NCBI RefSeq assembly: GCF_014879935.1
Contig: NZ_JACSRD010000137.1
Span: 1-64,000, forward strand
Source of the DNA: Prosthecobacter sp.
GTDB taxonomy: Bacteria > Verrucomicrobiota > Verrucomicrobiia > Verrucomicrobiales > Verrucomicrobiaceae
Length of the DNA: 64,000 nucleotides
Reading direction: 5' to 3'
This document shows, one piece after another, positions 10,627-30,038 of the stretch (the stretch's first letter is position 1; the number at the start of each line of letters is the position of its first letter). Below the pieces are notes generated by a model. That model did not search any database. It worked only from the letters and a program-made list of their open reading frames with translations, and was not told where the DNA came from. Both the position numbers and the translations under genes were made by a program.

Positions 10627-10730
10627 GCGGTTGAGAGTCTGACAACCCGCGACGTTTTTGCCTATGAGCGCGCGGTTGACGTGTGAATCCGCCCCCGGCA
10701 TGCCGCCTCCCACAGCATCATTTTAGACCC

Positions 10731-10750
10731 ACCGAAGAATTTGCTTAGTT
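10731..10750. promoter_or_regulatory. Shared 20-bp element, copy 1 (upstream of pseudopilin cassette)
   Basis: The sequence ACCGAAGAATTTGCTTAGTT matches 29862-29881 (ACTGAAGGATTTGCTTAGCT) at 17 of 20 positions, and all three differences are transitions. This copy is in the divergent spacer between cassette gene A (minus) and the secreted-protein gene at 10852 (plus). I found no third copy while scanning for the TTGCTTAG core. It could be a regulator binding site or part of a promoter for an alternative sigma factor. Confidence 0.55.
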
Positions 10751-10780
10751 GTTAAGTTTCGCCCGTGACAGCCCACAAGC

Positions 10781-10794
10781 TTCACAGTAGTGAA
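10781..10794. promoter_or_regulatory. Perfect TTCAC-N4-GTGAA palindrome (possible operator)
   Basis: TTCACAGTAGTGAA is a 14-bp 5-4-5 inverted repeat located 57 bp upstream of ATG 10852 in the divergent spacer. Size and symmetry fit a dimeric repressor site. No regulator can be assigned from the sequence. Confidence 0.35.
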
Positions 10795-10851
10795 CCGATC
10801 AGATGTAGGAACGCGCCCGCTCCCACAGCAACATTCAATCCCTACCACCTC

Positions 10852-12009
10852 ATGAAGCTCATCTGTTATGTAGTTCTGTTGGCATCAATCATGGTGTCTC
10901 TGGCACCGGCACAATCTGTAAGCGTTCTCGGACTCACGAAAACGCGGCACCACGACCAGACTGCGGCAGGAACAACCGCCTTTTATGAATATAGTCTCCG
11001 GGGCTTCGTGGAAGGCCAGTCCCTCAGCGCCAGCTTCCCTTCTCCATCCAACCGGTTCACTCGCTCAGGCGGTGGTCCTTATGTTTTGGGATATGTGAAC
11101 GGCCGTTGGGATTATGAAGAGTTCTTTTCCTCCAAGGCACTTCTCGATGCCGCCTTTCCAAACACAAGTTATGACTTCCTTGTGGGTGCTTCGCCTGCTG
11201 TGTCGCTCACCTTTGCGTCGGACGGCTATCCCACCCAACCCGTGATCACTGTCTCCGCAGGTACATGGCACCAAGGCCGTCTTCTCATTTCTCCTGCCCA
11301 GGCTGCCTCTGGTTTCACACTGACCAGCAACCCGTCGAACGGCAATGGATTCCTCACGCTTCAGGTATTCTCCAGCGCCACAGACATAGTTGATGAAGTT
11401 GTCACGCTCAATCCAGGCCTCGACGCGACGATCTCCGGAACCGTTCCCCCTGGAAGTCTCGAGATTCAACAGTTCTACGACGTGCATGCGGAATTTGACC
11501 ACGTTACGTCCAGCGCCTCGCTGACTGGACAGACTTGGGCCGCCCCGAACAGTTTTGGCTATGCGCTGTTCAGCTCCAACACCTGGTTTGAAATCGAGGT
11601 GCTGAATGAACTCACCGCCTGGCGCCTTCAGTATCTGGGCACCATTGAAAACACTGGCACCGCTGCTGACGATGCCGATGCGGATGGTGACGGCATCGTC
11701 AACGCGATGGAATTCGCCACGGGTCAGCATCCCGCCACTCGTGGCGTGCTAAACACCTCAGTCACGCGCACGGGTGGGAACGTGGAGTTCGTCTATCCCC
11801 GGAATGTTGCAGCCTTTGCCGCAGGCACAGAATACTTTGTGGAGTGGAGCGATTCCCTGCCTGGCACTTCCTGGAGCACCGTAGGCGTCGTCGAGGAAGT
11901 GCAGTCAGACAACGGCACTCTCCAGCAAATCAAAGCCACTCTTCCCGCGGGCACTGGCAACAAACGCTTCGTGCGCCTCCGTATAACCCTGCCAGCCCCG
12001 ATCGAGTAG
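10852..12009 (+). CDS. Secreted protein with C-terminal calcium-loop motif, function unknown
   Basis: This 385-residue protein has a clear signal peptide (MKLICYVVLLASIMVSLAPAQ). ATG 10852 is chosen because the in-frame ATG/GTG region at 10765 adds a non-signal leader. The body is beta-rich with no catalytic motif I recognise. Near residue 285 it carries DDADADGDGIVNAMEFATG, a DxDxDG calcium-binding loop of the dockerin/thrombospondin-3 type often seen before the C-terminal domain of exported Verrucomicrobiota proteins. The last ~90 residues (EYFVEWSDSLPGTSW...FVRLRI) form the beta-sandwich module that usually accompanies that loop. There is no PEP-CTERM tail. It diverges from the pseudopilin cassette and is a candidate client or partner. 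Confidence 0.75.
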   Translation: MKLICYVVLLASIMVSLAPAQSVSVLGLTKTRHHDQTAAGTTAFYEYSLRGFVEGQSLSASFPSPSNRFTRSGGGPYVLGYVNGRWDYEEFFSSKALLDAAFPNTSYDFLVGASPAVSLTFASDGYPTQPVITVSAGTWHQGRLLISPAQAASGFTLTSNPSNGNGFLTLQVFSSATDIVDEVVTLNPGLDATISGTVPPGSLEIQQFYDVHAEFDHVTSSASLTGQTWAAPNSFGYALFSSNTWFEIEVLNELTAWRLQYLGTIENTGTAADDADADGDGIVNAMEFATGQHPATRGVLNTSVTRTGGNVEFVYPRNVAAFAAGTEYFVEWSDSLPGTSWSTVGVVEEVQSDNGTLQQIKATLPAGTGNKRFVRLRITLPAPIE

Positions 12010-12039
12010 TCGATAAAGCAACGGACACGGCATCCACAG

Positions 12040-12064
12040 GTCACCCGGCTTGCCCCTGGGTGAC
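12040..12064. terminator. Hairpin between convergent genes (possible bidirectional terminator)
   Basis: GTCACCC (12040-12046) and GGGTGAC (12058-12064) form a perfect 7-bp stem with an 11-base loop. It lies in the 76-bp gap between the convergent stops at 12009 and 12086. There is no strong T-tract, so it may act as a Rho-assisted or mRNA-end-stabilising structure. Confidence 0.4.
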
Positions 12065-12085
12065 ATGTCGAGAAGAAGCCTGTAC

Positions 12086-15000
12086 TCAACGGCGACGGCG
12101 GCGGAGGAACAGCAGCATCAAACCGCCGAACAGGAGGCTCATGCGGCCGGGTTCGGGCACCACGATGATGATGCCGTGGCTGAGGAAGAGGCTGGTGTCG
12201 AACACGAAGCCGGAAAGGCTCAGATCGGGCAGTTCCAGGTCTCCCAGCAGGCCGCCGGAGCGGAAGCTGCCGCTGTTGCCGACATCAAAGCCGTTCGAGG
12301 TGACGGAGGTCCAGTCGATGAGATTGAACACATCCCCCATCACCGGCTGGTAGTCCGAACCGGTGCTGGTGAAGCGGATGATGCCGCCGCTGTCCATGCT
12401 GAAGGACCCGCTGACGTTCACGCGGTCATGATTGCCTCCGGTCTGCGAGTCGTAGAAGGCGGCCTGGCTGGCCACGTAGCTGTTGAAGGTGCCCGCGCCG
12501 AGGCTGGCACTGATGCCGGCGGCATCGTTGTAGTCCGCGCCGCCCGTGGCCCCCATCTGCAAAGTGAGGCGGGTGGCGCCAGTGGCGTCGCCAGTCAGCA
12601 CCAGGTTGCCATTCACCGTGAGAACGCCGATCTGGTCGCCTGCGGTGGCGATATTGCCAGGCGCGGAGGACATGCCCGGGCGCAACTGGCCGAGACCACC
12701 ATCGCTGCCGATGATGAGGCTCATGGCGGGGTCGGTGACCACGGTGCCGGAGCCGCTGAAGGTCTGGTCGAACACGAGATCCGCGTCGGTGGCGTCAAAG
12801 TCGAAGGTCGCTCCGTTGTTCACCTCGATCCAACTGGTGGACGCGATCGATCCGGCTCCCGACAGCGCCAGAGTGCCTTCGGCCACGGTCGTCTTGCCGG
12901 TGTAGGTGTTTGTGTTGGTGAAGGTCACCGTTCCCGGGCCCACCTTCTTGATTCCAAGGGTGTCACCAAAATCGGATTCCGAGATGACGCCGGTGAAGAT
13001 GACGCCCTTCTCGCCAGCGCCCGCGTCGTCGTTCGACGAGGAGGTGACGGTGACCTCGGCCACATTGTCCACGCCCGCGATGGAGCTGTGCTGCAGGGTG
13101 ATGTTCCCCACGAAGTAGCTGTAACCGGAGGTGAAGCTGCCGCCCAGGATCACGCTGCCGGCGCCGTTGGTGTCATTGATGTCGATGTCATTGAAGATCA
13201 TGAGGTCCGGCGCGGCGGCGATGAGGGCAACGTCCGGATTTGCCACATCAGCCAGCCAGTGCACGGGGTCGGTGTCATCGCCATTGACGGTGGAGATGTC
13301 CGTGGAGGCCATGAAGAAGCGGCCGCCCGCCTGGGTGACACCGCCGGTGACGGCGATGCTGGTGCCGTAGAGCATCTCGGACGATTCGTCGAAGTCTGCG
13401 GCGCGCACGAGGTTCATCACGGACTGCGATTCATTCACGCTGACGACGACATAGACGCCGTTGCGCTCCGGATGGTCGCCCTCGTCCTTCACCAGGATGC
13501 GTTTGCCGATATCGGCGGTCGTGAGCGTCACGCCATCGACCACGGAGCCCACATTGAGGAAGGCGCCGTTGCCTGCGCCGCCCGCGCCATCGCCGGCCGG
13601 ATCAAAGCTGCTGCTGGCGGAGGAGATCAGGGACTTCGTGGTGGCGAGGTAGGCGTCAGAGCCCAGCGTGTGGCGGGTGTCACCCAGCTCGACCGCGGTG
13701 GAGGACAGCGCGTTGCTGTCAAAGACGCTCAGCGTGCCGCTGCGGATGATGGTGCCGCCATCAATCGCGAGCCCGGCCGATCCGGCGCCCGCCGCGTAGG
13801 TGTTCGAGCTGTGGAACTCGACCGTGCCGGTGCCGATCTTGCGCAGCGGCGTCGTGCCGAAACTGATGTCATTGATGGCGCCGTTGAACTGCAGGATGGA
13901 GGAGCCGTCCGCCTCGACGAAGACATTGTTGGACATGTCCTGATAGAGCAGCATGGAGGCCGTGGCATCGAATCCATAGGTGCCGGAGGTCTCACGCGTG
14001 CCGATGACGGTGATGCCTTCGTCATTGCCGTCCACATTGTTCATGGAGACCGGATTGAGCACGGCATTGGCCGTTCCGGAGAGGAGGAACTCGACCTTGG
14101 CATCAATCGGATTCACCGAGACGAAGGGTGAGCCGCCGAGATACATCGTGTTGCCCGGATCGCCGAGGGCGGTGTTGTTGGTGATGACGAGGGTGCCCAT
14201 GACGACGCCCAGATTGCCCGCGAACGTGTTCACACCCGACAAGGTCTGCGTTCCGGAGCCGACTTTGAACAAGCTGCCCGCACCGCTGATGACGCCGGAG
14301 AATTCAGCGTCGTGGGTGTTGTCACCACCGATGCTGAGCGTGGAGTTGTCGATGTTCACCAGGGCGCCTGAGGTGCCCGACAGGGAACCGATGGTGACGA
14401 TCCAGCCGGTGCCCGCGTTGTCCCAGTAGGGGCTCAGTTTGGCACCGTCACTCACGATGAAGCGGGAGTAAGGCGAGAAGGAGTTGTTCGACCCGGCATA
14501 CAGGGTGCCCTCCTGCACGAGGGTGTTGCCCGTGTAGTTGCTGAAGGCGTCCACGACGTCGTTGCCGCCCGTGCTGGCGCCAAAGACCGTTTCACCAGCG
14601 CCGGTCTTCACGACCGTGAGCGGGGAGCTGCCGCCGCCGAAGTAGGCGCCGGCCACGCCATCACTGAGGCCGACGCCGATGTCCTGGTAGTTCGGGCCGC
14701 TCTGAGTGCCGGAGTCAAAGGTGATCGTGGCGGCGATGTTGGAGCCGTTTTCAATGCGGGAGCTGGGGGCCATGCCCGCGCCGCCGGTGAAGAGGAAATC
14801 CTGCGTGAAGGTGCGGCTCAGACCGCCGATCTGCAGGCGGCTGTTGTTGCGGAAGTTCACCGTGTTGGTGCCGAGGGCGGTCAGCGTGCCCAGACGCACG
14901 ATCTGGGCGTCGTCCTCGTCCAGCGTGGTGCCGGCGTCGGCACCGATGGTCAGCGTGCCGGTCCAGGCCAGGTTGTCCCCCCGCAGCCAGATGGTGAAGT

Positions 15001-18000
15001 CGATGTTGTTGTCATCGTTGGCGCTGCCGCCTTCGTTCGCATCCACCCAGATGTTGTTGGAGCCGGTGATGTTCCCGCTGATGTCGAAAATGGCGTGCTG
15101 CAGGTGGCCGACGAGGTTCGGATCGAGGTTTGTCGTGTCCTCATAGTAGAAGCGCACCGGAACGCCCGCCGAGGAGCCGCTGCCGACATAGATGCTGTTG
15201 GTGAAGTGGACGACGGAGCTGGCGGGGAAGTAACCGGCGGCGATGCGCACCTCCTGCTTGATGTTGTCGCGGATGATGATGTCGCGATTGAAGGTGAGGT
15301 CGATCTCAGGGGAATCGATGCTCGTGGTGGAGTTGCCGAAGAAGGCGTTTTCAATGCGAAGCTGGATGGTGGAGGTCTGCGCGAGCGTGGGATCGCCGAA
15401 GTACACGACGCCGTTCGGATTGAACAGGGCGCCGGAGTTCATCTGCATGCCCACAAAGCCGTCCTGGATGTCGAAGTCACCCGTCCAGGTGTGCAGCGGC
15501 CGGTAGATGCGCAGATTGCCGTCTCCCAGCTTGATGATGTCGCCCGTGCCCATGACACCACCCTCGTTGGGATTGATGAGGAACTCGGAGTTGCCCGTGC
15601 TGCCGGCATCTCCATAGCGGTTGCCCTGCGTCTGGAAGGTGAGGTCGCCGATGATGTTGAGAATGCCGTCAAAGGTCGGCTGGCGCTGCGTGCTGCCGTC
15701 GAACAGGATCTGGTCGCCAGCCTGCTCGCCGATCTGGAACCACTCGCGGAAGCGGATCTGGCCGTCGCGGCTGCCGTCACCGCGTTTCATGGAGAATTCG
15801 ATGATGGCGTTGTTGCGCACGATGGTGGCATCCGCCCACGATTCGGTGGTGCCGAAGATGGAATACTGCGCGTTGTCGTTGCCCTGGCCCTGGATGTCCA
15901 CGCGGATGGCGTTGACGCCGTCGCCAATGATGGTCAGGCCGGTGTAGTTGTTCACCACGCCGAGCAGGTCCTGTGTGGCACCGTTGACCGCGCTACGGTC
16001 GCCAAACTGCACGGTGCCGGAGCCGACGATCGTCAGGCCGCCCGCGTTCGGATTGTTGGTGCCGTAGGCGGAGATGATGTTGTTGGCCTCGGAGGAGATC
16101 TGATTGGCCGCGGTGCCCCGAATGATGAAGGTGCTGCCGGGATCGGTGACGCTCAGCGTGCCGTTGCCGCCACCCAGGACGATGTTCTGGGTCAGGTAGG
16201 CGCTGAACGCCCCGGTTTCGGAGTAATTGAGCGTGCCGCCGTTGAGGAAGATGCCGGAGGCGGTGCCAAACGCGCCGAGATTGTTGAACGACACCGTCGA
16301 GTCACCCACCACGTGCAGACCGCCCGTGAAGGTGTTCGTCACGTCGTAGGTGGTGTTGGAATAGGTCAGGTCCACAGTGCCCGAGCCCGTGACCATGCGG
16401 GAGAGCGTCAGCGTGGTGCCATCGACGATGCTGACGATCTTCGTTCCGGCGGCGATGTTCATGCCGGTGACGTCCATTCCGGCGACAAGGCCGGTCGTGT
16501 CCGCCAGGGTGACGTTGTAGGAGTTCGTGCTGGTGGTGCTGCTGAGAATGGTCTCCGCAGCGGAGCTGCCGGCGACGAAGGACAGCTCGCCAGAACCTGC
16601 CACAACGACGTTTTGCGCGCCGGTGATGCTGCCATCAAAGCTGACCGCGCCTGTGGCGAAGTTGTGGATGATGAGGTCCGTGCCCGCACCGCCGGTCGTG
16701 ACGCCCACGCCGGCACCGATGATCGTTCCGCCGGTGTGGTTGCTGGTGATGAGGATGCCGCCGTCCGCGAGGGTGATGGAACCGCTGGTGATCTCGCCCG
16801 CAGTGGTGTTGAAGCGCAGGGAATTGACCGCGCCGCCGGCGATGGTGCCGGTGACATCGACATTGGAGGCATCGTAGCCGGTGAAGGCCACCACATTGCC
16901 GGAGGCGTCCGTGGCCGCCCAGTCCGTGGCAAAGGGTTCGAAGGCCGCGTTTGCTCCAAACGTTGCGTAGGAGCCGATGCGCGTGACATTCTTCATCGCC
17001 GCGTTGGAGAAATTGACCACGCCGCCGCCGATGGACTGGAAGTGCACGGTTCCCGCCGCTGCACGCGTGATGGACGACCCGGCGATGCTCACCGTGCCAA
17101 AGCTGGAAACGCCATTGCCTGCCGCGGCGATGGCATTACCGCCCTGATTGAGCTTCAGGCTGCCGAAGTTCTCCGTGAAGGTGGCTCCGCTGCCATCCAT
17201 GACCAGCGTGCCGCCTGCGAGGGTCAGGCCGGCGCCATTGCCCACGCGGCGGTTCAGATTCGTGCCGTAGTCGGTCATGTTCAGGATGCCGCCCATGACG
17301 TTCACACTTTCCACGGTGCTGTCACCCGCGCTGGAACCCATGAGATTGACCTGGCCCGCGCCCAGCTTCGTGATGGAGGAGGTCACCAGGTTGCCGCCAT
17401 CGACGAAGTTCACGCGGAACGACACCTCGCCACCACGTGCGGCGAAGAGGCCGACATCACGCGTGTAAGTGGCCGTGCCCTGCGTGATGAACACGCTGCC
17501 ATCGCCCGTGCCGAAGGTGACCATGCCGCTGATGTTCACACCGCCCATGGTGGTGTTCCCCGTCGTGTTGCCGAGGCCGTAGTTGCCGTTGCCGGTGGAG
17601 TTGCTGGGATCGTAGGTCTCCACGCCGACTTCCCAGGACTTGAGATTGAAGTTCGAGCCGCCGTTGAGCAGGAAGAAGCCGAGATTGGCCGCGCCCGTGC
17701 CGTTTCCGGACAGAATGTCACGGCCGCCCATCTGGAGGCCGATCATCGGATTCGTGGCGGCGGAGTTCACCGTGGCAGCAGCGTCGTCGGTGTAGAAGTT
17801 GCCCGTGCCGCCATAGTACAAGCTGCCGCGGATGATGCGGATGCGGCCTGCCGCGTCATGCTGCTGGTTGAGTTGCACGGCGGACTCGTTGTTCGTGGCC
17901 GTGACTTCCATGCGCAGAACCTGCGACTGGTTGTAAATGTCCACCGGGCCGGTGAGAGCGCCGGAGACGCTGTCACGCACCTGTCCGGTGATGTTGAACA

Positions 18001-21000: not shown

Positions 21001-24000
21001 CGTTCAGATCATAGCCGGTGAAGGCCTGCACTCCGGTGGTGCCCTGACGTGCGGCCCAATCCGTGACCTGGCCGAGAACATTGCCATAGACGGCCCAGTA
21101 GCCGAACCTTTCGCCGTCCGTGGTGGTCAATCCGGGAGCGCTGATGTTGATCTGGCCGCCGCTGTCCTCGATGAACGCCATCGTCACGCCGGAAGCGGGG
21201 TTCAGGGTGAGGCTGGAGTTGATGTTGACCGTCGCATTGCCACGCACGGCCAGGCGTGAGCCGCCGGAGTTCAGCGTGAGGTCGCCAAAATCCTCCTGCG
21301 CGGTGCCCGCGAGCGCGTCCACGATGAGATAGCCGCCGCTGAGCGTCAGAGCCGCTCCATTGCCGACACGACGGCTGGCGTTCACGTCATAACCGGTCAG
21401 CACCAGCGTGCCGCCGAGCATTTTCAGCGCTTCCACGGTGCTGTCGCCAGCGGATGAGCCGAGCAGGTTCATGGTGCCCGCGCCGATCTTGGTGATGGAG
21501 GAGTTCACGAAGTCGCCGCCGTCCACAAAATTCACCCGCATGTCCACCGTGCCGCCCCGAGCCGCGTAGAGGCTGATGTTGCGGTCATAAAGCGTCGTCG
21601 CCTGGGTGTAGCGGATGCTTCCCGTGCCCGTGCCGAAGGTGATGGTGCCCGTGGTGTTCTCACCGCCGATGGTGGTGTTGCCAGTCGTGTTGCCCAGGCC
21701 GTAGTTGCTGTTGCCAGTGAGGTTCTCCGGATCGGTGGTGTCCACGCCGACGTTCCAGGAGGACAGATTGAAGGTGCTGCCGCCATTGCGCATGAACAGC
21801 GCCACGTCCTGGGCACCGATGCCCACATTGCTGTCGATGATCGAGCGGCCACCCATCTGGAGGCCGGACATGTCATTGTCCGGATTGATCGCCAGAGCGG
21901 CGGCGTCGGTGTAGAAATTGCCATCGCCCATGTAGCGCAGCACACCGCGCACGAGCTGGATGCGGCCGGTGGCATCGTAGGACTGCAGAAGATTCACCGT
22001 GGCGAGGTCGGTGGTGCCGGACACCTCCATGCGCAACGAGTCATTCACACTGCCGGCCGGCGTGAGAGCGCCGGTGGACTTGTCGGAGACCTGGCCGCGC
22101 AGGATGAGCGTGGAGTTCGTGGCGGCCGTGTAGGTGGTGAAGATGCGCGGGTCAGAGCCCTGGGCGCCAGGAGCGATCGGCGTGTCGCCGCCGAAGATGT
22201 CGCCATCGATGAAGAAGACGGTGTTCGAGCTGCCGATCTGGACACGCGGCACAAAACTGCGGACGTAGCCGCCTGCGGTGCCGGTGGAATCGACGTTGTC
22301 GATGATCACATTGCCACCCCACTGCGCGCCTTCGCCTTCGGCATAGAGAGCCAGGTTGCTGCCGTTGAGTTTGCCCACGTAGAGGTCCACACCAAAGATC
22401 CGGGCGCTGTTGCCGATGATGAAATTCCCCGCGCCGGTGACTTCCATGCGCGTGCTCTGGCCGAGCGCCAGGTTGTGACGCGCGTAGAGGTTCCCCTGCG
22501 TCACGCGGGTGTCACCAGTGTAGTAGTTCGCGCCATCGAGCGTCACGCTGGACGCGCCGGTCTTCGTGAGGCCGAAGCCGCCGGTGTTCATGATGCTGGT
22601 GCGCAGCACGCCCGTGGTGTTGTCACCGTCCGTGTTGCGGTGGGCGTTCAACTGGTCGCTGGTGTTGTACTGCGTCCACTCGCTGCCGGAGTAGATGATG
22701 GCCTCACGTCCATTGAAGTCCAGGACGCCGCCCTGGATGAAGTTGTTCATGGAAACGTTGCGGTTGGTGTCGCTGCCACCACCGGCACGGTCCATCACAC
22801 CCGAGTTGGCAAACATGAGCACGCCGGAGTTGATCTTGATGTTCCCCTCACGACCGAGATAAAGGTAGATGTCGTTCCCCGCGTTGCTGGTGTTGTTGAC
22901 AACGGTGTGGGCGCCGAAGCTGACAGAGTTGACCTCCAGGGCGCTGTCGAGTTGCAGCGCGGAATTGATCCGGGAGGTGAAGCCACTGCCAATCACGTCC
23001 GCCTCGATGCCAACAATGCGCAGATTCTGGTCGGCGGCGATGCCGCTGGAGGCCAGATCGACCGGCACGGTGCCGGAGGTGTTGCCTGGATCGGAGATGA
23101 TCTTGTAATCCGTCGAGCCGGGCGCGTCGGAGAGCGGGCGGAGGTAGTTCACCGTGGCTCCGGTCACCGGATTGATGCCCTGCTCCACCGTCACGAGGTA
23201 GCGTGACGTGCGGTCCTCATCCCAGATGACGCCGGTGGTGGTGTTGAAGAACTCAGGCCGCGAGCCGCCAAAGAAGCCGGGCGCGATGGAGGTGTTGCCA
23301 TTGGAGCCGTCTCCTGTTCCGACCGTGGGAGGGGCGGTGTCCACCGCCACGCCAGCCACGTCACCCCACTGGCTGACGCCAAAGTCGGCCGAGGCGAACT
23401 CCGTGCCGGGATCAAGCGACCGCAGATGCACGACGCTGCCGGGAGTGCGGACGATTTCATCAAAGTGCCACAATCCGTAGTCGCCCTGCTGGCGGAGTGC
23501 TCCATTGACGACGTCGGTGCCGAGGTCGAACTCCAGGCCGAGCACACCGCCACGGACGGTGAGCACTCCCGCGTCCTCCTCCCCGGAATAGACACCGGCG
23601 TTCGGACGCAGACGCATGCGGATGTAGCCCTCCGTGAAGATGGGCAGCGTGTCCGAGAAGCGGTCACGCATCTCGTCGATGGAGGTGGAGCCCGCGTCGT
23701 AGTAGAGGATGGTGTTGCGCTCGAGAGTCAGGCTGGACATGCCCTGCAAATTGCTGGCGCTGGTCATGTAGAAGTCGCCGGAACCGTTGTAGATGCCGCC
23801 GGTCCAGTCGGGCGCGTTGCCATAGATCTGCAGGGTGCCGTTGCCGGTGCGGAAGATGTCGCCGTCGCCGTAAATGGTGCCGCCGCCTTCGTTGAAGCGC
23901 ACGTTGCTGCCGTTCCGGTTCTTGATGAACATGTCCTCCTCAATGTAAAGCTGCCCGGAGAGACGGTAGGTGCGGGCCGTGCCGACAGTCTGCACGGTGC

Positions 24001-27000
24001 CACGACCTTCATAACCACGGCCGCGGAAGGTCATCCACTCACGAATGAGCGGATCTGAGGTGGTGTTCAGCAGCAGGGTGCCCTGGTCGCCGATGATGGT
24101 GCCGTCGATCCACGAACGGTTCGTCCCCAGAATGCCATCAGAGGCGGAACTGCCGGCGCTGGCGATGCGCAGGATGCCCTCGTTGACCCAGGTGATGCCG
24201 CCGTAGCTGTTGTACATGTTCGCCTGCGCGGTTCCATTTGGCGCTCCGGTCAGGGTCACCGTGCCGCCGCCGGTGATGATGAGATCACCGATGTCCGGAT
24301 TGCGGTCGCTGGCCGGCCGGAAGTCCGCGCCGATCTGATTGGAATTGGTGAAGCCATTCGCCGTGGTGACGTGGTTGAACTCGCTGCTGATGTAACCGTT
24401 GATCGTGAGGTTCTTGCCCGCATCGACCATGAGCGTGCCGCCATTGCCGCCCAGGAAGATGGTGCGGGCGCCGTTGAGCTCCATCGTCTCAGTCACATGC
24501 AGGGTGCCGCCGTCGAAGTGCAGATTGCCCGAGTCGAGGATCGCCCACATGCCCGCCTTGTTCTCCGTGGTCCGGCTGGCGTCCTCGAGATTCACCCAGA
24601 TGCCGGAAGAGTAACCGGAACCGCCGCTGGTCAGCGTGGTGGAGGTGACCACGGTGCTGCTGGAGTTGAACGTGCCGGTGGCGGCCACCGCAGGAGCGAC
24701 CTGTGTGTCGAAGATGATCGATGTCCCGGTCTGGCTCGTGTAAGCAGCCGAGCTGGAGGATGACGAGTTGCCGCCATTGCTGACACGGATGAGCTGCACG
24801 ATGGAGCCGTTCACCAGGCCGAGGTTCGCATCACTGGAGATCTGCACCACGCCGCCGTTGAGGTAGGTGTCGCCCGTGTAGGTGTTGCTGCCGGTGAGGA
24901 CCGTGGTGCCATCGCCTGCATTCACCAGATTCACCTTGCCCGCGTTGTCTGCGATGACAGCGGAGACAGACGCGATGCCCGTTCCATAGTGGTGGAGCAT
25001 GAGATCGTTGCTTCCACCGGTCCAGCCGCTGGTCAGGGTGCCGTTCGTGATGCTGACCGCGCCTGCGTTGGTGGCGGGCACGAGGATGCCGCCCTCATCC
25101 ACGGTGAGCGTGTGACCGCCGAGGTTCAAAGCGCCCGCGCCTTCAAAACGGACGGTGGCGGTGTTGGTATCGGCTCCGAGAGCGATTCCAGTCGTGAGGT
25201 TTGTGTGCAGACCGGCGCCGAAGGCGTCGCTCGTGTAAGCCGTCAAGGCCTGCACACCCGTGGTGCCCTGACGGGCCGCCCAATCGGTGACACCACCGGC
25301 AGCGCTGCCGTAAACAGCCCAGGAACCGAGGAAGTCGCCATCCGTGGTGCTCAGCCCGGTGGCGCTGATGTTCACCGCGCCATTGCCATCCTCCAGGAAG
25401 GCGAGCGACGAACCGGCCTTGCGAGTCAGGTTCGCGGCGGCATTGCCGAGCGTGAGCGTGGTGTTGTTCTGCGTGTTGACGAAGCTGGAGCCGTTGAAGA
25501 GCCAGATGTGGCTGTTGAGCTGCTGGCTGCGGGCCGTGCCCTGCGCATCCAGCACCAGGCCGCCACCGCCCCAGCTCGACTGGCCCGCAAGCGCCTGCGT
25601 GGAGTTGCTGGCGAACTGGTCATTGCCCGTCATCTCACCCCAATGCGCCTCGCCCGCCATGAAGTTCCAGCGGTCAATGTCGGAGTTGCCGACGTTGTTG
25701 CGGTTGAAGATGACGGTTCCGGGACCGACGATGGAAACGGACGAATTGAAGCTCTGCACCGTGCTGTTTTCATCATCCAGACGGCCGTTCCAGACCATCG
25801 TGCCGCCACGCACCTGGAGGAAGCGCACATCACGCTCGGCGGTCTGGTTGACGAACTGCAGGCTGAAGTTCTGATTGTTCGTCATGCTGCCGAAATAAAC
25901 CGTCCCGGACTCGTTTTCGCCGCCGATCGTCAGTGTGCCGTTGCGGTTGTCGTTGTAGGCGTAGAGATAGGGCGCGTTGAACACCTGGCCGTCCTTCGTC
26001 AGCATCAAATGGCTGTGGTAGGCGTTGGTGGTGCTGGTTCCGTCCGCACCGAGCACGGCGCGGGTGAAATAGTCGTTCGGCGTGATCAAGGCGCGTGCTC
26101 CGTCCGTGTAGAAACCGCCGGAACCCGCGGCTGTGAGCGGATCATACAGGATGCGGAAGTAACCCTGGCGCATGTCGATGCGGCCGGTGGCGTCCCACTG
26201 CTGGAACACGTTCACATTGCCTTCATCGTGGCCCGTCATCTGGAAGCGCAGCGCGTGATTCGTGTCGAGACGCGTGGCGGAGTCGCCGGTGCGGTAAACG
26301 GAGGTGATCGCGGCGTTCAGCGGGTCGGTCGCGAGGTTGCCCGTTGCCACGTCGCGGAACTGGCCACGAAGATTCACCGTGTAAGTCTCGCCAAAGCTCG
26401 TGGAGACGATCGGCGGATCAACGAAGGAGTCCGAGTCGCTGAAGTTCTCGTTGTGGTCGGTGTAGATGTTCCCGTACACCGACAACGTGCCGTTCGCACG
26501 GGCGGTGACCACATAGCTCTGGAATTCAGAGGAGCCGGTGCCATCGGCGACGTCGAGAATGATGTCTCCGCCCCAGGTGCTGTGCGTGGTGCCCTCATTG
26601 CGCAGGGCGGTGACACTGCTCTGAGTGGTGTTGCTCACGCGCAGATTGATGCCGCTGATGTTCGTGCCGTATTCAAGCAGGAAGGCGGAGCCGCCGCCGA
26701 TCTGCACCTCACGCCCCGGACCGCCGGCACCGAGCGCACGGTTGTGACGCGCGATGATGGAGCCCTGCTCGCTGATGTAGATCGTGCCGCTGATGTCGTT
26801 CCAGGTGTCGAGATACAGGTTGTTGCGGCCGCTCTTGGTCAGATCGGTCGTGTTAATGAGGTGGGAGCGGATGTAGGAGCTGTTGCCCGTGATCACTTCA
26901 TACCAGTTCGGCGTGTCGCGGTCGAGATCGTGCCAGACGGTGCTCGCATTGATCACAGCGGGGCCGCCGTTCATGTCGAGGTTGCCGCCGCGGATCAGGG

Positions 27001-29704
27001 CCTCGACGTTGGCCGAGTTGGCCTCCACGAAGCTGATGAAGTTGATCACGCCGGAGTTCACGGTCAGCGTCTTGCCGTTCTCGATGATGATGTAGTCCTT
27101 CGCGGCCGTGGGAACCGCCTGGCCGGAGGTGCCTGCGTCAAAGCTGATGGTGAGCGAGTTCACCGCCACATCCGAGGTCACGTTGCGGCCGGCGTAGTTG
27201 TTGCGGTCCGAGAAGTTTCCGCCTGTCGGCGAGATGTAGCCGTTCACCAGCCAGTTAGTGCCCGCCACCGGCGTCATGCCGACGTTGTACTCGGAGGCGG
27301 TCAAAGGACGGAGGTAGCCGTTGTCCAAGGTCATGAGGCCGGTGCCGCCGCCGCTGAACATGAAGCTGCCCTGCACCGATTCGAGCGGACGGGTGTGGGT
27401 GCTGATGGTTGGCGTGGCCAGAGTGGGCAGGACACCGCCAAAAACGCCCACCACGATCTTCTGCGTGTCCGTGCCGACCGCGTCAGCGCCCACAGTCACC
27501 AGTCCGGCGCTGTTGAGCAGTTCGATCCGGTCGTCCCCGGCGCCAATCCCGAAGGTGTGGCTCGGATTGGTGTCGTAGATCTTCAGGACGGAGCCGTTGT
27601 TGAGTGTGAGGCTCTGGAACGCGCCGTCAAACTGGCCGCCGGCACGGGTGTCGAGGTAGATGTAGTTCGTTCCGTAGTCGGAGACGATGTTGCCCAGGTT
27701 TTCCTGGTTCTTCGTCGTCACGTCCGTCTCCAGCAGCAGGTAGCCATTGCGGAAGTTGGTGAAGCCGGTGTCATTGATGCGGTCGTCGTTGTTGACGCTG
27801 GCATAAACCGGGTTGGCGGAGTTGTTCAGCAGCGCCACAGAGCCCCAGCGCGTGATCGTGATCGAGTTCGCCTGGTTGAGGCTGCCGTTCGCGCCCGCCA
27901 GGGACATGTTGAAGTAAACCGAGGCCGCCTGGCCGCCGTTGGAGCGGTCAAAACTGTTGCTGATCCAGCGTCCGGTGGACTGCTTTACCAGGACGTCGCC
28001 ATCGAAGCCGGTGCTGTTCCCGGTGAGGCGCAGCTCACGTGAGCCACGGACCGCAAAACCGGTGCCGTTGTTTCCGGAGCTGGTGTTGTCAAAGACGCCG
28101 TTGATCTCCGTCACTCCGGGATGATCGAACGTGCCTGTGGTGCTGTTGTAAACGCCGGAACCGCCTTGAATGTCGAACAGGTTGCCGGTGCCGAAGTCAT
28201 CCGGCGCGAAGCCACCGCCGACGAGATTGATCGTCACGTTGTTGAAGATGTGGTCGAAGGTTCGGCCGGCCTCGCCGTTGCCCTCACGCTGGAACACGCC
28301 GTTGTTCAAGTTGAACGTCATGGCGTTGAAGGTCAGCGTCTCCTTCGTCTGCTCCGCCAGCGTTCCTGTGTTGGCCACGCTCGCGCCCCAATAGGAACCC
28401 ACGGAGAAGCGCGCGTTGCTGATCGAGTTCCCCTGGGTGGCGCTCTGGTTGATGTTCACGCCGAAAAGGTCAGTCGTGGTGCGGCTGCCATTCAGCGGAT
28501 CGACGTTGTCATAAGGATTGCGGTTGTAGCTGATGTTGACGGTGAGGCCGTCGAGATTGATGCCGGTGGAGGCGCCGGTGCCGTTCAGCAGGCCGCGTGA
28601 CTCGAAACGGACCTCGCCTTCGTAGATGTTCAACGTGGCGCCGTCCGCGTTCAGCACGTCCGCACCACGGATGATGAAGTCAGCGGCTCCGATCTTGGAA
28701 AGGGTGTTGTTGGTGGCACCGAAATCAAGCACCGAGGCCACGCCGGCCGTGGTGCTGGAGTCCTGATGGCGCTCGAGAACGATGGTGCCCTGCGAATTGA
28801 CCAGCGCGTTCCAAGTCAGCTCCAGATGGGAAAGGTAGGCGGTCCCGGAGGAGTTCCGCAGAGCCCCCAGGCCATTCGGGCCCGTGCCTTCGATCTTGAA
28901 GATCTCCGTGAAGTCGTTCGCCGCATTGAAATCGTGGTCGCGCAGATCCACACCACCGTCACCGAGGACAATGGTCTCGTTGCCAACACCCACGGCACCG
29001 GCGTAGGAGGTGGTGTTGCTGCCATCAAAACGGATCAGGCCTGAATTGGCGACGATCTGCCCCTCAAAGGTGTTGGCCCCCTGAAGAACGAGGAAATTGA
29101 GCGATCCGGTGCTACTCGTGGCGGGCGAGAGGTCCGTCAGCGTGATGGTGGCACTGCCATTGGTGCCGCCGGAGATGGGTCCGTTGATCGTGAGCCCCTG
29201 GCTGTTGCTCACATCCGAGATCGTCACATCCAGCGGGTCTTGAATGGTGATCGCGGAGGAGATGGTGTTGTTGTTTCCGTTGGGCCCCATGTTGATCTGG
29301 GAGTTGGAGCCGTTGTTGTTGAGCACCAGCGTACCTCCGGAGATCACGAACGAATTGCTGCCGTTCGAATCGCCAAAATTGATGACCCCGAGCGTCACAA
29401 TCGACCCCGGCATTCCACCATCGATCGTGACCGTGCGCGTGCCGTTGATGTCGTTGGTGAAGTTGGCGATGTCACCCGCGCCGTTGGGGATCACGCCCCC
29501 GACCCAACTGCCCGTAGCGCTCCAGTTGCCGTTGGCGTTGACGTTCCAAGTGCCCTCCGTCTGGGCGGTGGCTGTGGCCGGGAGGAGCGCGAGAAGCGCT
29601 CCTGCCAGAAGCATGACGAGCATGCGCTCCTTGCGACTCGATCCGCCATAGGCTCCGGGAAAACTGGCGTGCGGATGAGACTCGTGGGAAGACATCGTAT
29701 TCAT
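12086..29704 (-). CDS. Giant PEP-CTERM surface protein with autotransporter-associated beta-strand repeats (5,872 aa)
   Basis: ATG 29704 gives an extended signal region with the hydrophobic core MLVMLLAGALLALLPATATA at residues 28-47. The body is almost wholly right-handed beta-helix-like and rich in Gly, Asn, Thr and Ser. Many copies resemble the autotransporter-associated beta-strand repeat, for example KVGPGTVTFTNTNTYTGKTT and VAEGTLALSGAG. Three tandem units of about 1,380 residues occupy residues ~797-4,800. The protein ends with a PEP-CTERM sorting signal: VPEP, a hydrophobic helix and a five-Arg tail, recognised by an exosortase. There is no C-terminal autotransporter barrel, so export is expected by Sec plus exosortase, perhaps helped by the pseudopilin cassette. 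Upstream of the ATG there is CAACCTCA instead of a Shine-Dalgarno. Its role is probably adhesion or surface layer; the single uninterrupted frame over 17.6 kb argues for selection. Confidence 0.9.
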   Translation of the reverse strand: MNTMSSHESHPHASFPGAYGGSSRKERMLVMLLAGALLALLPATATAQTEGTWNVNANGNWSATGSWVGGVIPNGAGDIANFTNDINGTRTVTIDGGMPGSIVTLGVINFGDSNGSNSFVISGGTLVLNNNGSNSQINMGPNGNNNTISSAITIQDPLDVTISDVSNSQGLTINGPISGGTNGSATITLTDLSPATSSTGSLNFLVLQGANTFEGQIVANSGLIRFDGSNTTSYAGAVGVGNETIVLGDGGVDLRDHDFNAANDFTEIFKIEGTGPNGLGALRNSSGTAYLSHLELTWNALVNSQGTIVLERHQDSSTTAGVASVLDFGATNNTLSKIGAADFIIRGADVLNADGATLNIYEGEVRFESRGLLNGTGASTGINLDGLTVNISYNRNPYDNVDPLNGSRTTTDLFGVNINQSATQGNSISNARFSVGSYWGASVANTGTLAEQTKETLTFNAMTFNLNNGVFQREGNGEAGRTFDHIFNNVTINLVGGGFAPDDFGTGNLFDIQGGSGVYNSTTGTFDHPGVTEINGVFDNTSSGNNGTGFAVRGSRELRLTGNSTGFDGDVLVKQSTGRWISNSFDRSNGGQAASVYFNMSLAGANGSLNQANSITITRWGSVALLNNSANPVYASVNNDDRINDTGFTNFRNGYLLLETDVTTKNQENLGNIVSDYGTNYIYLDTRAGGQFDGAFQSLTLNNGSVLKIYDTNPSHTFGIGAGDDRIELLNSAGLVTVGADAVGTDTQKIVVGVFGGVLPTLATPTISTHTRPLESVQGSFMFSGGGTGLMTLDNGYLRPLTASEYNVGMTPVAGTNWLVNGYISPTGGNFSDRNNYAGRNVTSDVAVNSLTISFDAGTSGQAVPTAAKDYIIIENGKTLTVNSGVINFISFVEANSANVEALIRGGNLDMNGGPAVINASTVWHDLDRDTPNWYEVITGNSSYIRSHLINTTDLTKSGRNNLYLDTWNDISGTIYISEQGSIIARHNRALGAGGPGREVQIGGGSAFLLEYGTNISGINLRVSNTTQSSVTALRNEGTTHSTWGGDIILDVADGTGSSEFQSYVVTARANGTLSVYGNIYTDHNENFSDSDSFVDPPIVSTSFGETYTVNLRGQFRDVATGNLATDPLNAAITSVYRTGDSATRLDTNHALRFQMTGHDEGNVNVFQQWDATGRIDMRQGYFRILYDPLTAAGSGGFYTDGARALITPNDYFTRAVLGADGTSTTNAYHSHLMLTKDGQVFNAPYLYAYNDNRNGTLTIGGENESGTVYFGSMTNNQNFSLQFVNQTAERDVRFLQVRGGTMVWNGRLDDENSTVQSFNSSVSIVGPGTVIFNRNNVGNSDIDRWNFMAGEAHWGEMTGNDQFASNSTQALAGQSSWGGGGLVLDAQGTARSQQLNSHIWLFNGSSFVNTQNNTTLTLGNAAANLTRKAGSSLAFLEDGNGAVNISATGLSTTDGDFLGSWAVYGSAAGGVTDWAARQGTTGVQALTAYTSDAFGAGLHTNLTTGIALGADTNTATVRFEGAGALNLGGHTLTVDEGGILVPATNAGAVSITNGTLTSGWTGGSNDLMLHHYGTGIASVSAVIADNAGKVNLVNAGDGTTVLTGSNTYTGDTYLNGGVVQISSDANLGLVNGSIVQLIRVSNGGNSSSSSSAAYTSQTGTSIIFDTQVAPAVAATGTFNSSSTVVTSTTLTSGGSGYSSGIWVNLEDASRTTENKAGMWAILDSGNLHFDGGTLHVTETMELNGARTIFLGGNGGTLMVDAGKNLTINGYISSEFNHVTTANGFTNSNQIGADFRPASDRNPDIGDLIITGGGTVTLTGAPNGTAQANMYNSYGGITWVNEGILRIASAGSSASDGILGTNRSWIDGTIIGDQGTLLLNTTSDPLIREWMTFRGRGYEGRGTVQTVGTARTYRLSGQLYIEEDMFIKNRNGSNVRFNEGGGTIYGDGDIFRTGNGTLQIYGNAPDWTGGIYNGSGDFYMTSASNLQGMSSLTLERNTILYYDAGSTSIDEMRDRFSDTLPIFTEGYIRMRLRPNAGVYSGEEDAGVLTVRGGVLGLEFDLGTDVVNGALRQQGDYGLWHFDEIVRTPGSVVHLRSLDPGTEFASADFGVSQWGDVAGVAVDTAPPTVGTGDGSNGNTSIAPGFFGGSRPEFFNTTTGVIWDEDRTSRYLVTVEQGINPVTGATVNYLRPLSDAPGSTDYKIISDPGNTSGTVPVDLASSGIAADQNLRIVGIEADVIGSGFTSRINSALQLDSALEVNSVSFGAHTVVNNTSNAGNDIYLYLGREGNIKINSGVLMFANSGVMDRAGGGSDTNRNVSMNNFIQGGVLDFNGREAIIYSGSEWTQYNTSDQLNAHRNTDGDNTTGVLRTSIMNTGGFGLTKTGASSVTLDGANYYTGDTRVTQGNLYARHNLALGQSTRMEVTGAGNFIIGNSARIFGVDLYVGKLNGSNLALYAEGEGAQWGGNVIIDNVDSTGTAGGYVRSFVPRVQIGSSNTVFFIDGDIFGGDTPIAPGAQGSDPRIFTTYTAATNSTLILRGQVSDKSTGALTPAGSVNDSLRMEVSGTTDLATVNLLQSYDATGRIQLVRGVLRYMGDGNFYTDAAALAINPDNDMSGLQMGGRSIIDSNVGIGAQDVALFMRNGGSTFNLSSWNVGVDTTDPENLTGNSNYGLGNTTGNTTIGGENTTGTITFGTGTGSIRYTQATTLYDRNISLYAARGGTVDMRVNFVDGGDFVNSSITKIGAGTMNLLGSSAGDSTVEALKMLGGTLVLTGYDVNASRRVGNGAALTLSGGYLIVDALAGTAQEDFGDLTLNSGGSRLAVRGNATVNINSSLTLNPASGVTMAFIEDSGGQINISAPGLTTTDGERFGYWAVYGNVLGQVTDWAARQGTTGVQAFTGYDLNAFSSGNNTNVTTGGTFGSDTVTNSIRFGAAATLNLGGNTLTVENGGMLVSHDAGGPVSITNGTLTRAGAGDILLHNYGTATISANITDGGGKVNLVTGGTGTTILSGSNTYTGDTYVNGGVLQISSESQLGAINGSIARLVRENSGNNSGASGNLTFIGGGSGSGATGTFTASSNVVTSTTLTNGGSGYDSGVYVNTLAAGTGNAGIWAIFDSGNLHLDGGTLAVTDDITLNGARTIFLGASGGTFDLAAGKTLTINGYITSDVTDLPANDLPVDATRPYIGGLVVEGGGTLVLTGAPDNVIRSNMYNGYNALTMINNGTIQISSAGSSATSILGTYGGWVDSTYIGPNGTLLLSATSDPTIYEWLTLDGQGYQGGGVIQSNSTARSNYLRGHTEFRSDAVFNLRNGSNLYLNNGGGDAFGSGDIIRIGNGEFRFYGNIPGWTGDFIATSGLNRVYGVAGHVQGMGKLVLERNAYFGLEASSTSVDEFSDRLRDDMPVFADGYTRMRLEASGGVFSGFERVGVATVNAGVFGIEFDLGATLVGGAPKLVNDFAGWQFSEIVRTQGSSVHLRLFDSGTLFADSTFSPFLNSGSNRAVVQVDVMPALVGTGDGSNGNAAIVPGFFGGVRPAWVNGSGTGNIFNEDYTASRLVTVDTDLSGNHYLRPLLDSEYKIIANPDTAQTTSIYWGDQGINADQNLKLVGVITDTGIGAGEFTNRRNSILTLGSSDSPESAEVNSLTFASETFADGVNGRGNWTTLMLGDGDVLTIKSGVIQMANFGVQNRNGAAYDANQNLDIRSSLNGGSVNFDGQEAHFYLGSLWVHYNTSDSLNAYRTTDGDNNYFFMNSSIMNANGLTKTGSSSLFLQAPNYYTGPTNVNLGTLYARHDKALGATTQVNVMAGGGFAIGLGSRIAGIDLYIGKINGTNTALQIENNSVWAGNVIVDNVDSAGATSYARTFTPRVFSNTTGLATLEGNIYGGSTPVGSGALTDSRMFSTYTGAFGLFNITGQVRDSVSGALTGPVDIYNQSQVLRMEVTATNNESAVQLNQQHDAAGRIRIIRGSLYYGGTGNFYTDDAAATVNSAATNPMIGLQMGGRDILSGNGTGAANLGFFLLNGGSNFNLKSWEVGVETYDPSNSTGNGNYGLGNTTGNTTMGGVNISGMVTFGTGDGSVFITQGTATYTRDVGLFAARGGEVSFRVNFVDGGNLVTSSITKLGAGQVNLMGSSAGDSTVESVNVMGGILNMTDYGTNLNRRVGNGAGLTLAGGTLVMDGSGATFTENFGSLKLNQGGNAIAAAGNGVSSFGTVSIAGSSITRAAAGTVHFQSIGGGVVNFSNAAMKNVTRIGSYATFGANAAFEPFATDWAATDASGNVVAFTGYDASNVDVTGTIAGGAVNSLRFNTTAGEITSGSITLADGGILITSNHTGGTIIGAGVGVTTGGAGTDLIIHNFATGAVSFDGSITGAQNVVVAGSGELSFVAGSSAAETILSSTTSTNSYNVTLADTTGLVAGMDVTGMNIAAGTKIVSIVDGTTLTLSRMVTGSGTVDLTYSNTTYDVTNTFTGGLHVVGDSTVSFNNLGAFGTASGIFLNGGTLNYSETGAFSAYLTQNIVLGGGNGTLSVTDPGSTFIIRGTAANQISSEANNIISAYGTNNPNAGGLTIVGSGTVQFGDRSAVNGATQDLLGVVNNYTGLTIIGDGVNAIRVDIQGQGNDNAQYSIFGTTESWADATIVRNNAIIEFSMKRGDGSRDGQIRFREWFQIGEQAGDQILFDGSTQRQPTFDGILNIIGDLTFQTQGNRYGDAGSTGNSEFLINPNEGGVMGTGDIIKLGDGNLRIYRPLHTWTGDFDIQDGFVGMQMNSGALFNPNGVVYFGDPTLAQTSTIQLRIENAFFGNSTTSIDSPEIDLTFNRDIIIRDNIKQEVRIAAGYFPASSVVHFTNSIYVGSGSSAGVPVRFYYEDTTNLDPNLVGHLQHAIFDISGNITGSNNIWVDANEGGSANDDNNIDFTIWLRGDNLAWTGTLTIGADAGTTLDEDDAQIVRLGTLTALGTNTVNFRNNSRLQIGGLSRTFTQDFLFTGGAGMAPSSRIENGSNIAATITFDSGTQSGPNYQDIGVGLSDGVAGAYFGGGSSPLTVVKTGAGETVFGASTGGNDVVDAFSNYTGNTLVQEGTLYAGSNNSFSPYSRFIVSDGAKLSPYWDNAGTGWIVTIGSLSGTSGALVNIDNSTLSIGGDNTHDAEFSGVISGAGSLFKVGSGTQTLSGVNTFAGNLGVVMGTLVITNNTALGDPGNTMYLGGSPFVSVNPIDAKVEFLLSGTANAVLNPVSMNNVDGNDEGITVIGTRETSGTYGFDATASMLLYQDMSNNVFVEADGSSILQFNGAINDISFGTTPLRKIGTGTVEFHSSNTYAAGAGSAGLAIDGGTIIRSGTLSVFDSNALSSTAVELGDTRHTLGSDAYLATTKSLISSASSSFDPAGDGAGGAGNGAFLNVGSVVDGVTLTTADIGKRILVKDEGDHPERNGVYVVVSVNESQSVMNLVRAADFDESSEMLYGTSIAVTGGVTQAGGRFFMASTDISTVNGDDTDPVHWLADVANPDVALIAAAPDLMIFNDIDINDTNGAGSVILGGSFTSGYSYFVGNITLQHSSIAGVDNVAEVTVTSSSNDDAGAGEKGVIFTGVISESDFGDTLGIKKVGPGTVTFTNTNTYTGKTTVAEGTLALSGAGSIASTSWIEVNNGATFDFDATDADLVFDQTFSGSGTVVTDPAMSLIIGSDGGLGQLRPGMSSAPGNIATAGDQIGVLTVNGNLVLTGDATGATRLTLQMGATGGADYNDAAGISASLGAGTFNSYVASQAAFYDSQTGGNHDRVNVSGSFSMDSGGIIRFTSTGSDYQPVMGDVFNLIDWTSVTSNGFDVGNSGSFRSGGLLGDLELPDLSLSGFVFDTSLFLSHGIIIVVPEPGRMSLLFGGLMLLFLRRRRR
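12089..12163 (-). other. PEP-CTERM sorting signal of the giant protein
   Basis: The last 25 codons encode VVPEPGR, then the hydrophobic stretch MSLLFGGLMLLFL, then RRRRR. This is the tripartite exosortase recognition signal (Pro-Glu-Pro, transmembrane helix, basic tail). No exosortase gene lies in the window. Confidence 0.9.
13200..13560 (-). other. Phage tail-fibre-like module inside the giant protein
   Basis: At roughly residues 5,380-5,500 the beta-strand repeats are interrupted. The new segment has GKRILVKDEGDHPERNGVYVV, then VRAADFDESSEM, then YGTSIAVTGG, then GGRFFMAST. The pattern 'VLVKD...ENGVY.V...RA.D.D...E...G....V..G' is one I know from phage structural and tail-fibre proteins. 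It differs from the rest of the protein in charge and composition (many Asp, Glu, Arg). Homology is a judgement from pattern; boundaries are approximate. Confidence 0.5.
15300..19022 (-). repeat. Giant-protein tandem unit 3 (diverged, C-terminal part lost)
   Basis: This unit begins at LRPLLDSEYKI (about 19022) and matches units 1 and 2 through landmarks such as NYGLGNTTGNTT (about 17540-17600) and SSAGDSTVE (about 17320). Homology fades after WTGDFDI and TTSID at about 15300-15480. It also carries a local insertion around 16350-16530 (GLVAGMDVTGMNIAAGTKI...DGTTLTLSR). Confidence 0.65.
19023..23147 (-). repeat. Giant-protein tandem unit 2 (about 4.1 kb)
   Basis: This unit begins at LRPLSDAPGSTDYKI (about 23147). 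Landmarks repeat in the same order as in unit 3, offset by about 4.12 kb: NYGLGNTTGNTT (about 21660-21715), ITKIGAGTMNLLGSSAGDS (about 21430-21510) and RRVGNGA (about 21360). Local DNA identity to unit 3 is obvious by eye, indicating a fairly recent duplication. Confidence 0.75.
23148..27316 (-). repeat. Giant-protein tandem unit 1 (about 4.2 kb)
   Basis: This unit begins at LRPLTASEYNV (about 27316). Landmarks shared with unit 2 at a 4.1-4.2 kb offset include LTGSNTYTGDTY (24857-24892 versus 20650-20690), NGARTIFLGG (about 24460 versus 20295) and LTTDGDFLGSWAVYGSA (about 25330 versus 21110 for the FGYWAVYGNV version). It is more diverged in its first third. Confidence 0.7.
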
Positions 29705-30038
29705 TGAGGTTGGCTGGACTTGAATGAGCGAAGCTGCCGGGGCACAGCTCCGAGATTTGGCCGCCATTCTGCCTGAATGGATGTTTCTTCCTATTGGGCG
29801 CGCAGTTTGGTATTAGCTGGGCTTTCAGCGTGCGATGGAATACACTTTCCAATCAGACATGACTGAAGGATTTGCTTAGCTCTCTGCGCAGCGCAGGACA
29901 GAGCTGCGCCGGCGCTCAATTCGCCCAAAAATTTTGATTTCATGGGGCGTTCATCTGGTCTCATGCCTTCCCCTCCGGTGCCGTCGGCACCGGCCATTTC
30001 AAAAAAAACTCCCCTGCCACCGCGCACATCGTTTGAAC
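29705..30038. other. 334-bp divergent control region of the giant gene
   Basis: No gene is visible here. The region separates the giant gene (minus) from the 30039 gene (plus). It contains the second copy of the shared 20-bp element (29862-29881). It also has a 7-bp stem hairpin, GCGCAGC (29886-29892) with GCTGCGC (29903-29909), directly beside that element. I could not fix a convincing sigma-70 promoter for either gene. Confidence 0.6.
29862..29881. promoter_or_regulatory. Shared 20-bp element, copy 2 (upstream of giant PEP-CTERM gene)
   Basis: ACTGAAGGATTTGCTTAGCT matches the element at 10731-10750 at 17/20 positions with only transitions differing. It is about 160-180 bp from both divergent start codons (29704 minus, 30039 plus). 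The orientation relative to the minus-strand gene is the same in both copies. Confidence 0.55.

Follow-up and report, generated by a model that had tools for sequence, protein, structure and literature searches.

A conserved upstream module common to a giant PEP-CTERM gene and a Verru_Chthon pseudopilin cassette in Prosthecobacter

Transcriptional control of PEP-CTERM genes has been described for proteobacteria by Haft et al. (2006; PMC1569441). In the sections of that paper drawn on here, a 17-nt distal motif is followed by a spacer with a mean length of 62.8 nt (s.d. 10.6) and by a promoter motif, the latter lying on average 71 nt from the start codon of PEP-CTERM genes; motif 2 is consistent with sigma-54, with which the regulator PrsR interacts. 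The same sections report 65 PEP-CTERM genes and no PrsK, PrsR or PrsT in V. spinosum, confine the motif to proteobacteria, and note that more regulators and motifs are yet to be discovered both within and outside that group. Two other systems resemble the Prosthecobacter locus presented below in part. The pepA gene of Aquincola likewise encodes a PEP-CTERM protein, has a promoter of its own and is preceded by a predicted enhancer, but in the portions of the report consulted (PMC9850573) it is RpoN-dependent and has a sigma-54-type promoter with a determined start, unlike the locus described here. The EmbRS and BmfRS systems share with it the LuxR-type two-component control of an extracellular or biofilm matrix, but they are proteobacterial, and neither a corresponding DNA site nor a link to a giant protein is given in the relevant portions of the source (PMC3684757). 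In the open-licence literature, no paper was found that names the Verru_Chthon cassette or describes its control, and none on PEP-CTERM in Prosthecobacter or on promoters in connection with both PEP-CTERM and exosortase in Verrucomicrobia; the titles and abstract openings found there describe no comparable control module.

The window, i.e. the whole stretch of 64,000 nucleotides of Prosthecobacter DNA that was analysed, contains a giant PEP-CTERM gene flanked by a pseudopilin cassette and by a regulator operon, with the following genes:

3796-4452, 4434-5498 and 5532-6149, after A: Verru_Chthon D, C and B, respectively (TIGR02596, TIGR02599 and TIGR02598, all over cut-off)
6100-10626, minus strand: Verru_Chthon cassette protein A (TIGR02600, 981.6 bits)
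10852-12009, plus strand: gene between the giant gene and A
12086-29704, minus strand: giant PEP-CTERM gene with autotransporter-type repeat, 5872 codons from the ATG at 29704
30039-31298, plus strand: conserved gene divergent from the giant gene, 69-71% identical to its counterparts in G011, G014, G027, G029 and G030
31293-32015, minus strand: NarL/FixJ-type response regulator, receiver and GerE domains (PF00072, 73.2 bits; PF00196, 57.9 bits)
32012-33943, minus strand: sensor histidine kinase with PAS, HisKA_3 and HATPase domains, which probably starts only near 33750
33748-34734, minus strand: NMT1/SsuA-like solute-binding protein, encoded at the head of the regulator operon

The cassette is complete, with A, B, C and D in order and all four over the NCBIfam cut-offs. 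The C-terminal 638 residues of the giant protein match TIGR02595 and TIGR02601 over cut-off, and its last 24 residues form the PEP-CTERM domain itself (TIGR02595, 24.1 bits, cut-off 16). For the product of 30039-31298, neither Pfam nor NCBIfam gave a match at E<=0.01.

Two 20-bp sequences of the window, ACCGAAGAATTTGCTTAGTT at 10731-10750 and ACTGAAGGATTTGCTTAGCT at 29862-29881, both read on the plus strand, had been noted in a preliminary description as a shared element, and they do agree at 17 of 20 bases, with all three differences being transitions. Both point toward minus-strand genes, as was described, and end 104 bp upstream of the start of A (10626) and 157 bp upstream of that of the giant gene (29704). 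Their assignment to divergent control regions extends, at the giant gene, from the window to relatives; at A, the gene on the divergent side (10852-12009) was matched in none of 21 related loci at E<=1e-5. No third copy of the 20-mer was found in the window at up to three mismatches, and the 17-base IUPAC core has exact matches in its own genome (7.7 Mb) at these two sites only. The genome-wide motif search that had been proposed yields no enrichment: at up to three mismatches, the 17-base core has 26 matches in its own genome as compared with 36 for a backward control, and the bare 20-mer has 57 as compared with 51 in 56 genomes, the own one included. Nine bare-motif places in relatives were inspected, of which one, in G011, is a true leader; those in G002, G004, G020 and G022 have one common coding-looking context, which we take to be galE, and the other four, that of G015 included, look intergenic or coding. 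Shuffling of the two spacers alone reproduced a 17/20 match in 3 of 1000 trials; when all 14 spacers of the window, as defined from an approximate gene list, were shuffled, at least one pair as good was present in 9 of 20 sets. A chance match had been considered unlikely, which does not survive this window-wide correction. Because the whole window had been scanned when the pair was noticed, the match in a single genome is by itself not evidence, and the case has to be carried by comparative data.

The comparative sample consisted of 48 genomes of the genus of the window, its own included. The first 300 residues of the giant gene product were matched in 12 of them, again with the own genome included (E<=1e-25), and orthologues of A are 73-78% identical in G004, G011, G027, G029, G030 and G031 and 67% identical in G017. 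A module of about 145 bp, common to the giant gene and Verru_Chthon_A, lies upstream of both in these congeneric genomes. It was seen in five leaders of the giant gene (besides the window, in G011, G027, G029 and G030) and in five of A (besides the window, in G004, G027, G029 and G030), the A leader of G011, which is broken at contig ends, having been left out of the alignment. Conservation in close relatives, on which the preliminary description had made its proposal depend, is therefore found upstream of orthologues of both genes. The corresponding features of the window are:

29862-29881, minus strand: box 1 before the giant gene (copy 2), minus-strand sequence AGCTAAGCAAATCCTTCAGT, with the TAAGCAA core at 29872-29878
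29742-29885, minus strand: entire conserved module before the giant gene (alignment; model R1, E=2.3e-24, a training sequence)
29766-29793, minus strand: putative promoter core TAGGAA-N16-CAGAAT before the giant gene, with -35 and -10 parts predicted from sequence only
10731-10750, minus strand: box 1 before Verru_Chthon_A (copy 1), minus-strand sequence AACTAAGCAAATTCTTCGGT, with the TAAGCAA core at 10741-10747
10638-10750, minus strand: degenerate copy of the module before Verru_Chthon_A (model R1, outside training)

The module consists, in this order, of box 1 (TAAGCAA and its extension), TAGGCA or an equivalent and CARAAT, and is followed by the ATG. The consensus of box 1, TAAGCAAAAGCTKYA, is the minus-strand form of the 20-mer, and its TAAGCAA is kept in all five aligned leaders of the giant gene (group 1 in the following) as well as in all five aligned leaders of A. 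From TAAGCAA to TAGGCA the spacing is 84-86 bp in nine of the ten leaders, if that of A in G004 is taken at the equivalent TGG; it is 63 bp in the giant-gene leader of G030 owing to a deletion of 23 bp, i.e. about two helical turns. Eight leaders were aligned by MAFFT with single-base gaps only, and CARAAT is kept in all eight. Between the leaders of the giant gene and those of A, identity amounts to 82-89% at box 1 (10-bp windows), 28-42% in the spacer behind it and 66-71% around ATAGG, while the values of 0.25-0.42 at columns ~106-130 understate the -10 region, where the hand alignment is offset by one base. Since the spacers between the conserved boxes are near background in both gene families, the boxes are under selection, and the difference between box 1 and the spacer next to it argues that box 1 has been selected and not merely inherited.

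A sequence-only model of the module, designated R1, was trained on eight leaders, without those of A in the window, of the giant gene in G030 and of A in G011. Searched against the 48 genomes, with filters that lose some weak matches, it gave 12 matches at E<1e-4, all of which are leaders of the giant gene or A and none of which lies at any other gene. Four of the 12 are outside the training set, namely the A leader of the window (31.4 bits, E=1.2e-6), the giant-gene leader of G030 (67.2 bits) and two pieces near two contig ends of G011 (54.1 and 29.0 bits), which overlap at model positions 58-76 and are read as one broken A leader. The next match, that of G014 (E=0.0115), is located upstream of its giant homologue, and the profile of the giant-gene leaders gives this leader 13.2 bits as compared with 8.3 bits for the best of 2400 shuffles. 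The two leader families also recognise each other: the giant-gene profile scores A leaders at 9.2-25.6 bits (best of 2000 shuffles, 13.1) and the A profile scores giant-gene leaders at 24.0-36.5 bits (best of 2000 shuffles, 7.1). Nine of the ten leaders exceed all 2000 of their shuffles; the A leader of the window, with 9.2 bits, is beaten by one of 2000 and is thus the weakest copy of the module.

The module is restricted to two targets. In the genome of the window R1 finds at E<=10 the two sites and only one further match, of 13.5 bits. Among 22 Verrucomicrobiales loci around A homologues, R1 matched five, all of them close orthologues, and none with a more distant A protein; the second Verru_Chthon cassette of the same genome (contig C134) shows no box in the 300 bp that precede its A gene, and ten further upstream regions of A were found to have no module. 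With the leader DNA as a query, matches at E<1e-8 were confined to the own genome, G011, G027, G029 and G030; there were 12 weak matches besides, of which that in G004 is the coding-looking bare-motif place mentioned above. The composite pattern TAAGCAA-N74-82-TAGGMAR has 13 matches in the 48 genomes, eight at leaders of the giant gene or A and five elsewhere, a count that alone proves nothing because the backward control gives about 62. With two targets of R1, a second cassette lacking the box and a bare motif without enrichment, the broad regulon suggested in the preliminary description finds no support; this is a dedicated two-target module. As a separate observation, another conserved stretch, GTARTTACAAMATAAATACCTTG, is present upstream of Verru_Chthon_A of the second type in the own contig C134 and in G008 (L128 and L129), and perhaps represents a second promoter class.

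The two sites had been regarded as two loci 19 kb apart, but those 19 kb are the giant gene itself, and in relatives the giant gene and A stand in tandem, next to each other and in the same direction. The gap between them is 495 bp in G004, 455 bp in G029, 475 bp in G030 and 476 bp in G027; in the window it reaches 1459 bp and holds the plus-strand gene 10852-12009, and it comprises 47 bp in G031 and, as read from the sequence, about 25 bp in G017. The A orthologues behind a gap of 455-1459 bp (window, G004, G027, G029 and G030) carry the module. R1 has no match at A in G031 and G017, with gaps below 50 bp, and there transcription might continue from the giant gene into A. Whether by a module of its own or by such read-through, A would be linked in expression to the giant gene, which may be taken as an argument for their co-function. 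Between the stop of the giant gene and the module of A, three of the related loci (L112, L114 and L116) have a further conserved stretch, TGTTATTACTTKGTAAAA, and a fourth (L120) has TGTTGTTACTTCGTAAAA; the TGTTATTACTTKGTAAAA-type stretch was not seen in the 700 bp of the window inspected. The giant gene itself is variable, its orthologue in G027 (L112 and L113) having 7309 codons as compared with 5872 in the window, and on contig C81 of G011 (L119 and L167-L169) it looks interrupted, an ORF of 1192 aa for the N-terminus being separated by about 36 kb from a frame of several thousand aa for the C-terminus.

Taken together, the 20-mer is probably the distal operator of a module of about 145 bp that co-expresses the giant gene and the Verru_Chthon cassette, before which modules of the same orientation and near-equal geometry would bring about this co-expression. 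Box 1 would bind an activator, and the block 84-86 bp downstream would hold a sigma-70-like promoter, TAGGCA-N16/17-CARAAT, so that box 1 would lie about 105-120 bp upstream of the predicted transcription start. That the module acts as protein-bound DNA, where its promoter lies and that it activates rather than represses, we infer. The promoter-like pattern TAGG[CA]A-N16/17-CA[AGC]AAT is present in eight of the ten leaders, with N16 in five of the giant gene and N17 in three of A. The exceptions are the A leader of G004, in which the -35 part differs, and that of the window, in which TAGGCA is found at 10659-10664 and the expected -10 part (10636-10641) reads CAGACT. A spacing of 16 or 17 bp between the hexamers would be as expected for -35 and -10 parts; the likeness of the block to the sigma-70 consensus is moderate only. 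A sigma-54 promoter was also considered. The strict -24 GG/-12 GC pattern occurred in one of 16 leaders, at its edge, the loose GG-N10-GC pattern was found at index 98-99 in three of five A leaders and there in none of the five giant-gene leaders, and a distal motif ending in TTTACA was absent from all 16; with no site common to the leaders of both genes, this reading was rejected.

Box 1 could instead be the -35 region of a sigma-70-type promoter, so that the two genes would share a promoter class and no separate operator would be needed. Such a promoter can be recognised in four of the five A leaders, where a -10-like hexamer (TAAAAT, TAGAAT, TAAAAC or TAGGTC) stands 16-17 bp after TAAGCA, and it suits A of the window in particular: its CAGACT ends 9 bp before the ATG and transcription would start almost at the ATG, and TAAGCA-N16-TAAAAT fits better as a promoter, the exact position of which is uncertain in this leader. 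The pattern is, however, seen in none of the five giant-gene leaders, which leads us to prefer the operator role, and neither the extent of conservation at box 1, about 15 bp, nor the near-constant distance of 84-86 bp to a second conserved block is expected of a -35 region. As the explanation of the shared element it is therefore unlikely, and a second, promoter role of box 1 at A is possible. By eye, box 1 is partly dyad-symmetric and the window copy is no clean palindrome. Somewhat less likely still is common ancestry alone, by which the leader of the giant gene was duplicated before A and persists as a remnant without joint regulation. A duplication is indeed indicated by the near gap-free colinearity over 145 bp and by the beginning ATGAATAC that the giant gene and A share in the window and in G030, but a mere remnant does not explain why the spacer has decayed to 28-42% identity between the two leader families and box 1 has been kept at 82-89%, in genomes the A proteins of which are 73-78% identical to that of the window.

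A structured, riboswitch-like leader RNA in both mRNAs would account for a long conserved leader, and a small CATTC/GAATG inverted repeat can be seen by eye in several giant-gene leaders. All ten leaders, however, fold no better than their shuffles (z-scores 0.35 to -1.55); the leaders of the window have no Rfam match over gathering, and in six leader loci the Rfam matches at E<=5 were limited to two, both unrelated and below gathering. With these results action at the level of DNA is favoured, and the structured RNA was rejected as very improbable. Chance in one genome, for which the equally good pairs in shuffled spacer sets and the unenriched bare motif could be invoked, is contradicted by the orthologous conservation and by the R1 matches outside training, and is hardly credible. 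The operator of a module shared by the giant gene and the cassette thus remains the preferred reading.

The activator would be the NarL-type regulator of the operon beside the giant gene, which encodes the solute-binding protein, the PAS kinase and the regulator. Regulator orthologues of 77-85% identity adjoin the giant gene in G011, G014, G027, G029 and G030, so that the regulator is beside it in the window and in five of the 11 relatives with a match to the giant N-terminus; in the other six the best regulator homologue is found elsewhere. The kinase is seen beside the giant gene directly in G014, and via antisense frames only in G011, G027, G029 and G030. A two-component system is thereby associated with the giant gene. 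In G009, G034 and G056, a homologue of the regulator (57-71%) stands immediately before an ORF related to the N-terminal part of the giant protein; these ORFs run past the end of the sequence examined and measure at least 3209, 701 and 942 aa, respectively. In G059 the operon is followed by other ORFs, and in G018, G033, G064 and G017 (contig C2) by an RNA-like element, presumably RNase P RNA. The regulator belongs to a large family, with a match at E<=1e-40 in all 48 genomes, so that proximity is the sole link between it and box 1, of which it may be considered a candidate binder. Its Pfam matches are Response_reg and GerE, with no sigma-54 activation domain among them. The regulator operon has at its promoter a conserved CTTTA-N8-TAAAG dyad (L241, L242, L243, L245 and L248), which is possibly an autoregulatory site. 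Downstream of the cassette, the window encodes another regulator with GAF and GerE domains (1828-2583, minus strand) and a partial likeness to EpsA (TIGR03020, 60.8 bits, cut-off 170); having no match in 21 related loci, this LuxR-GAF protein was set aside as controller.

More distant giant homologues, in G017, G018, G033, G034, G059 and G064 (group 2), have a common leader of their own, in which 78-80 bp separate TAAAG from AATAG. By eye it resembles the module of group 1 in CAAGCC...AATAG and in spacing, and CAAAAT follows 26 bp on in three of the six. The group-1 profile gave no score with any of the six leaders, so profiles do not link the groups and the group-2 leader is treated as a possible homologue only. 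A group-2 model, R2, matched outside its training the leader of G009, where the operon is accompanied by the giant-like ORF (E=7.4e-8). A weak R2 match before the kinase operon of G018 (13.9 bits) is, like the CTTTA-N8-TAAAG dyad there, a lead and not a result.

That the model finds the module at only two transcription units in the genome is evidence that the giant gene and the cassette act together. The shared control suggests a role in giant-protein export, the function named in the preliminary description, and makes it testable whether the pseudopilins handle the giant protein. We put forward tentatively, and with more doubt than confidence, a Verrucomicrobiota counterpart of the Prs system in which the operon would control giant PEP-CTERM genes and the cassette through a dyad operator in distal position and a core of the sigma-70 type and would regulate itself, the pseudopilins exporting or assembling the giant protein. 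Membership of PrsK/PrsR proper was rejected, as the sigma-54 motif, TTTACA and the NtrC-type regulator were all lacking. As far as the cited sections on the proteobacterial system allow a comparison, the present locus differs from PrsK/PrsR in having no common sigma-54 site and no TTTACA, in its regulator, composed of receiver and GerE, and in the pseudopilin cassette as one of its two targets. It resembles PrsK/PrsR in the succession of distal motif, spacer, promoter motif and PEP-CTERM gene, and in the two-component system, and it offers a candidate cis-site and a candidate regulator for PEP-CTERM genes outside the Proteobacteria.
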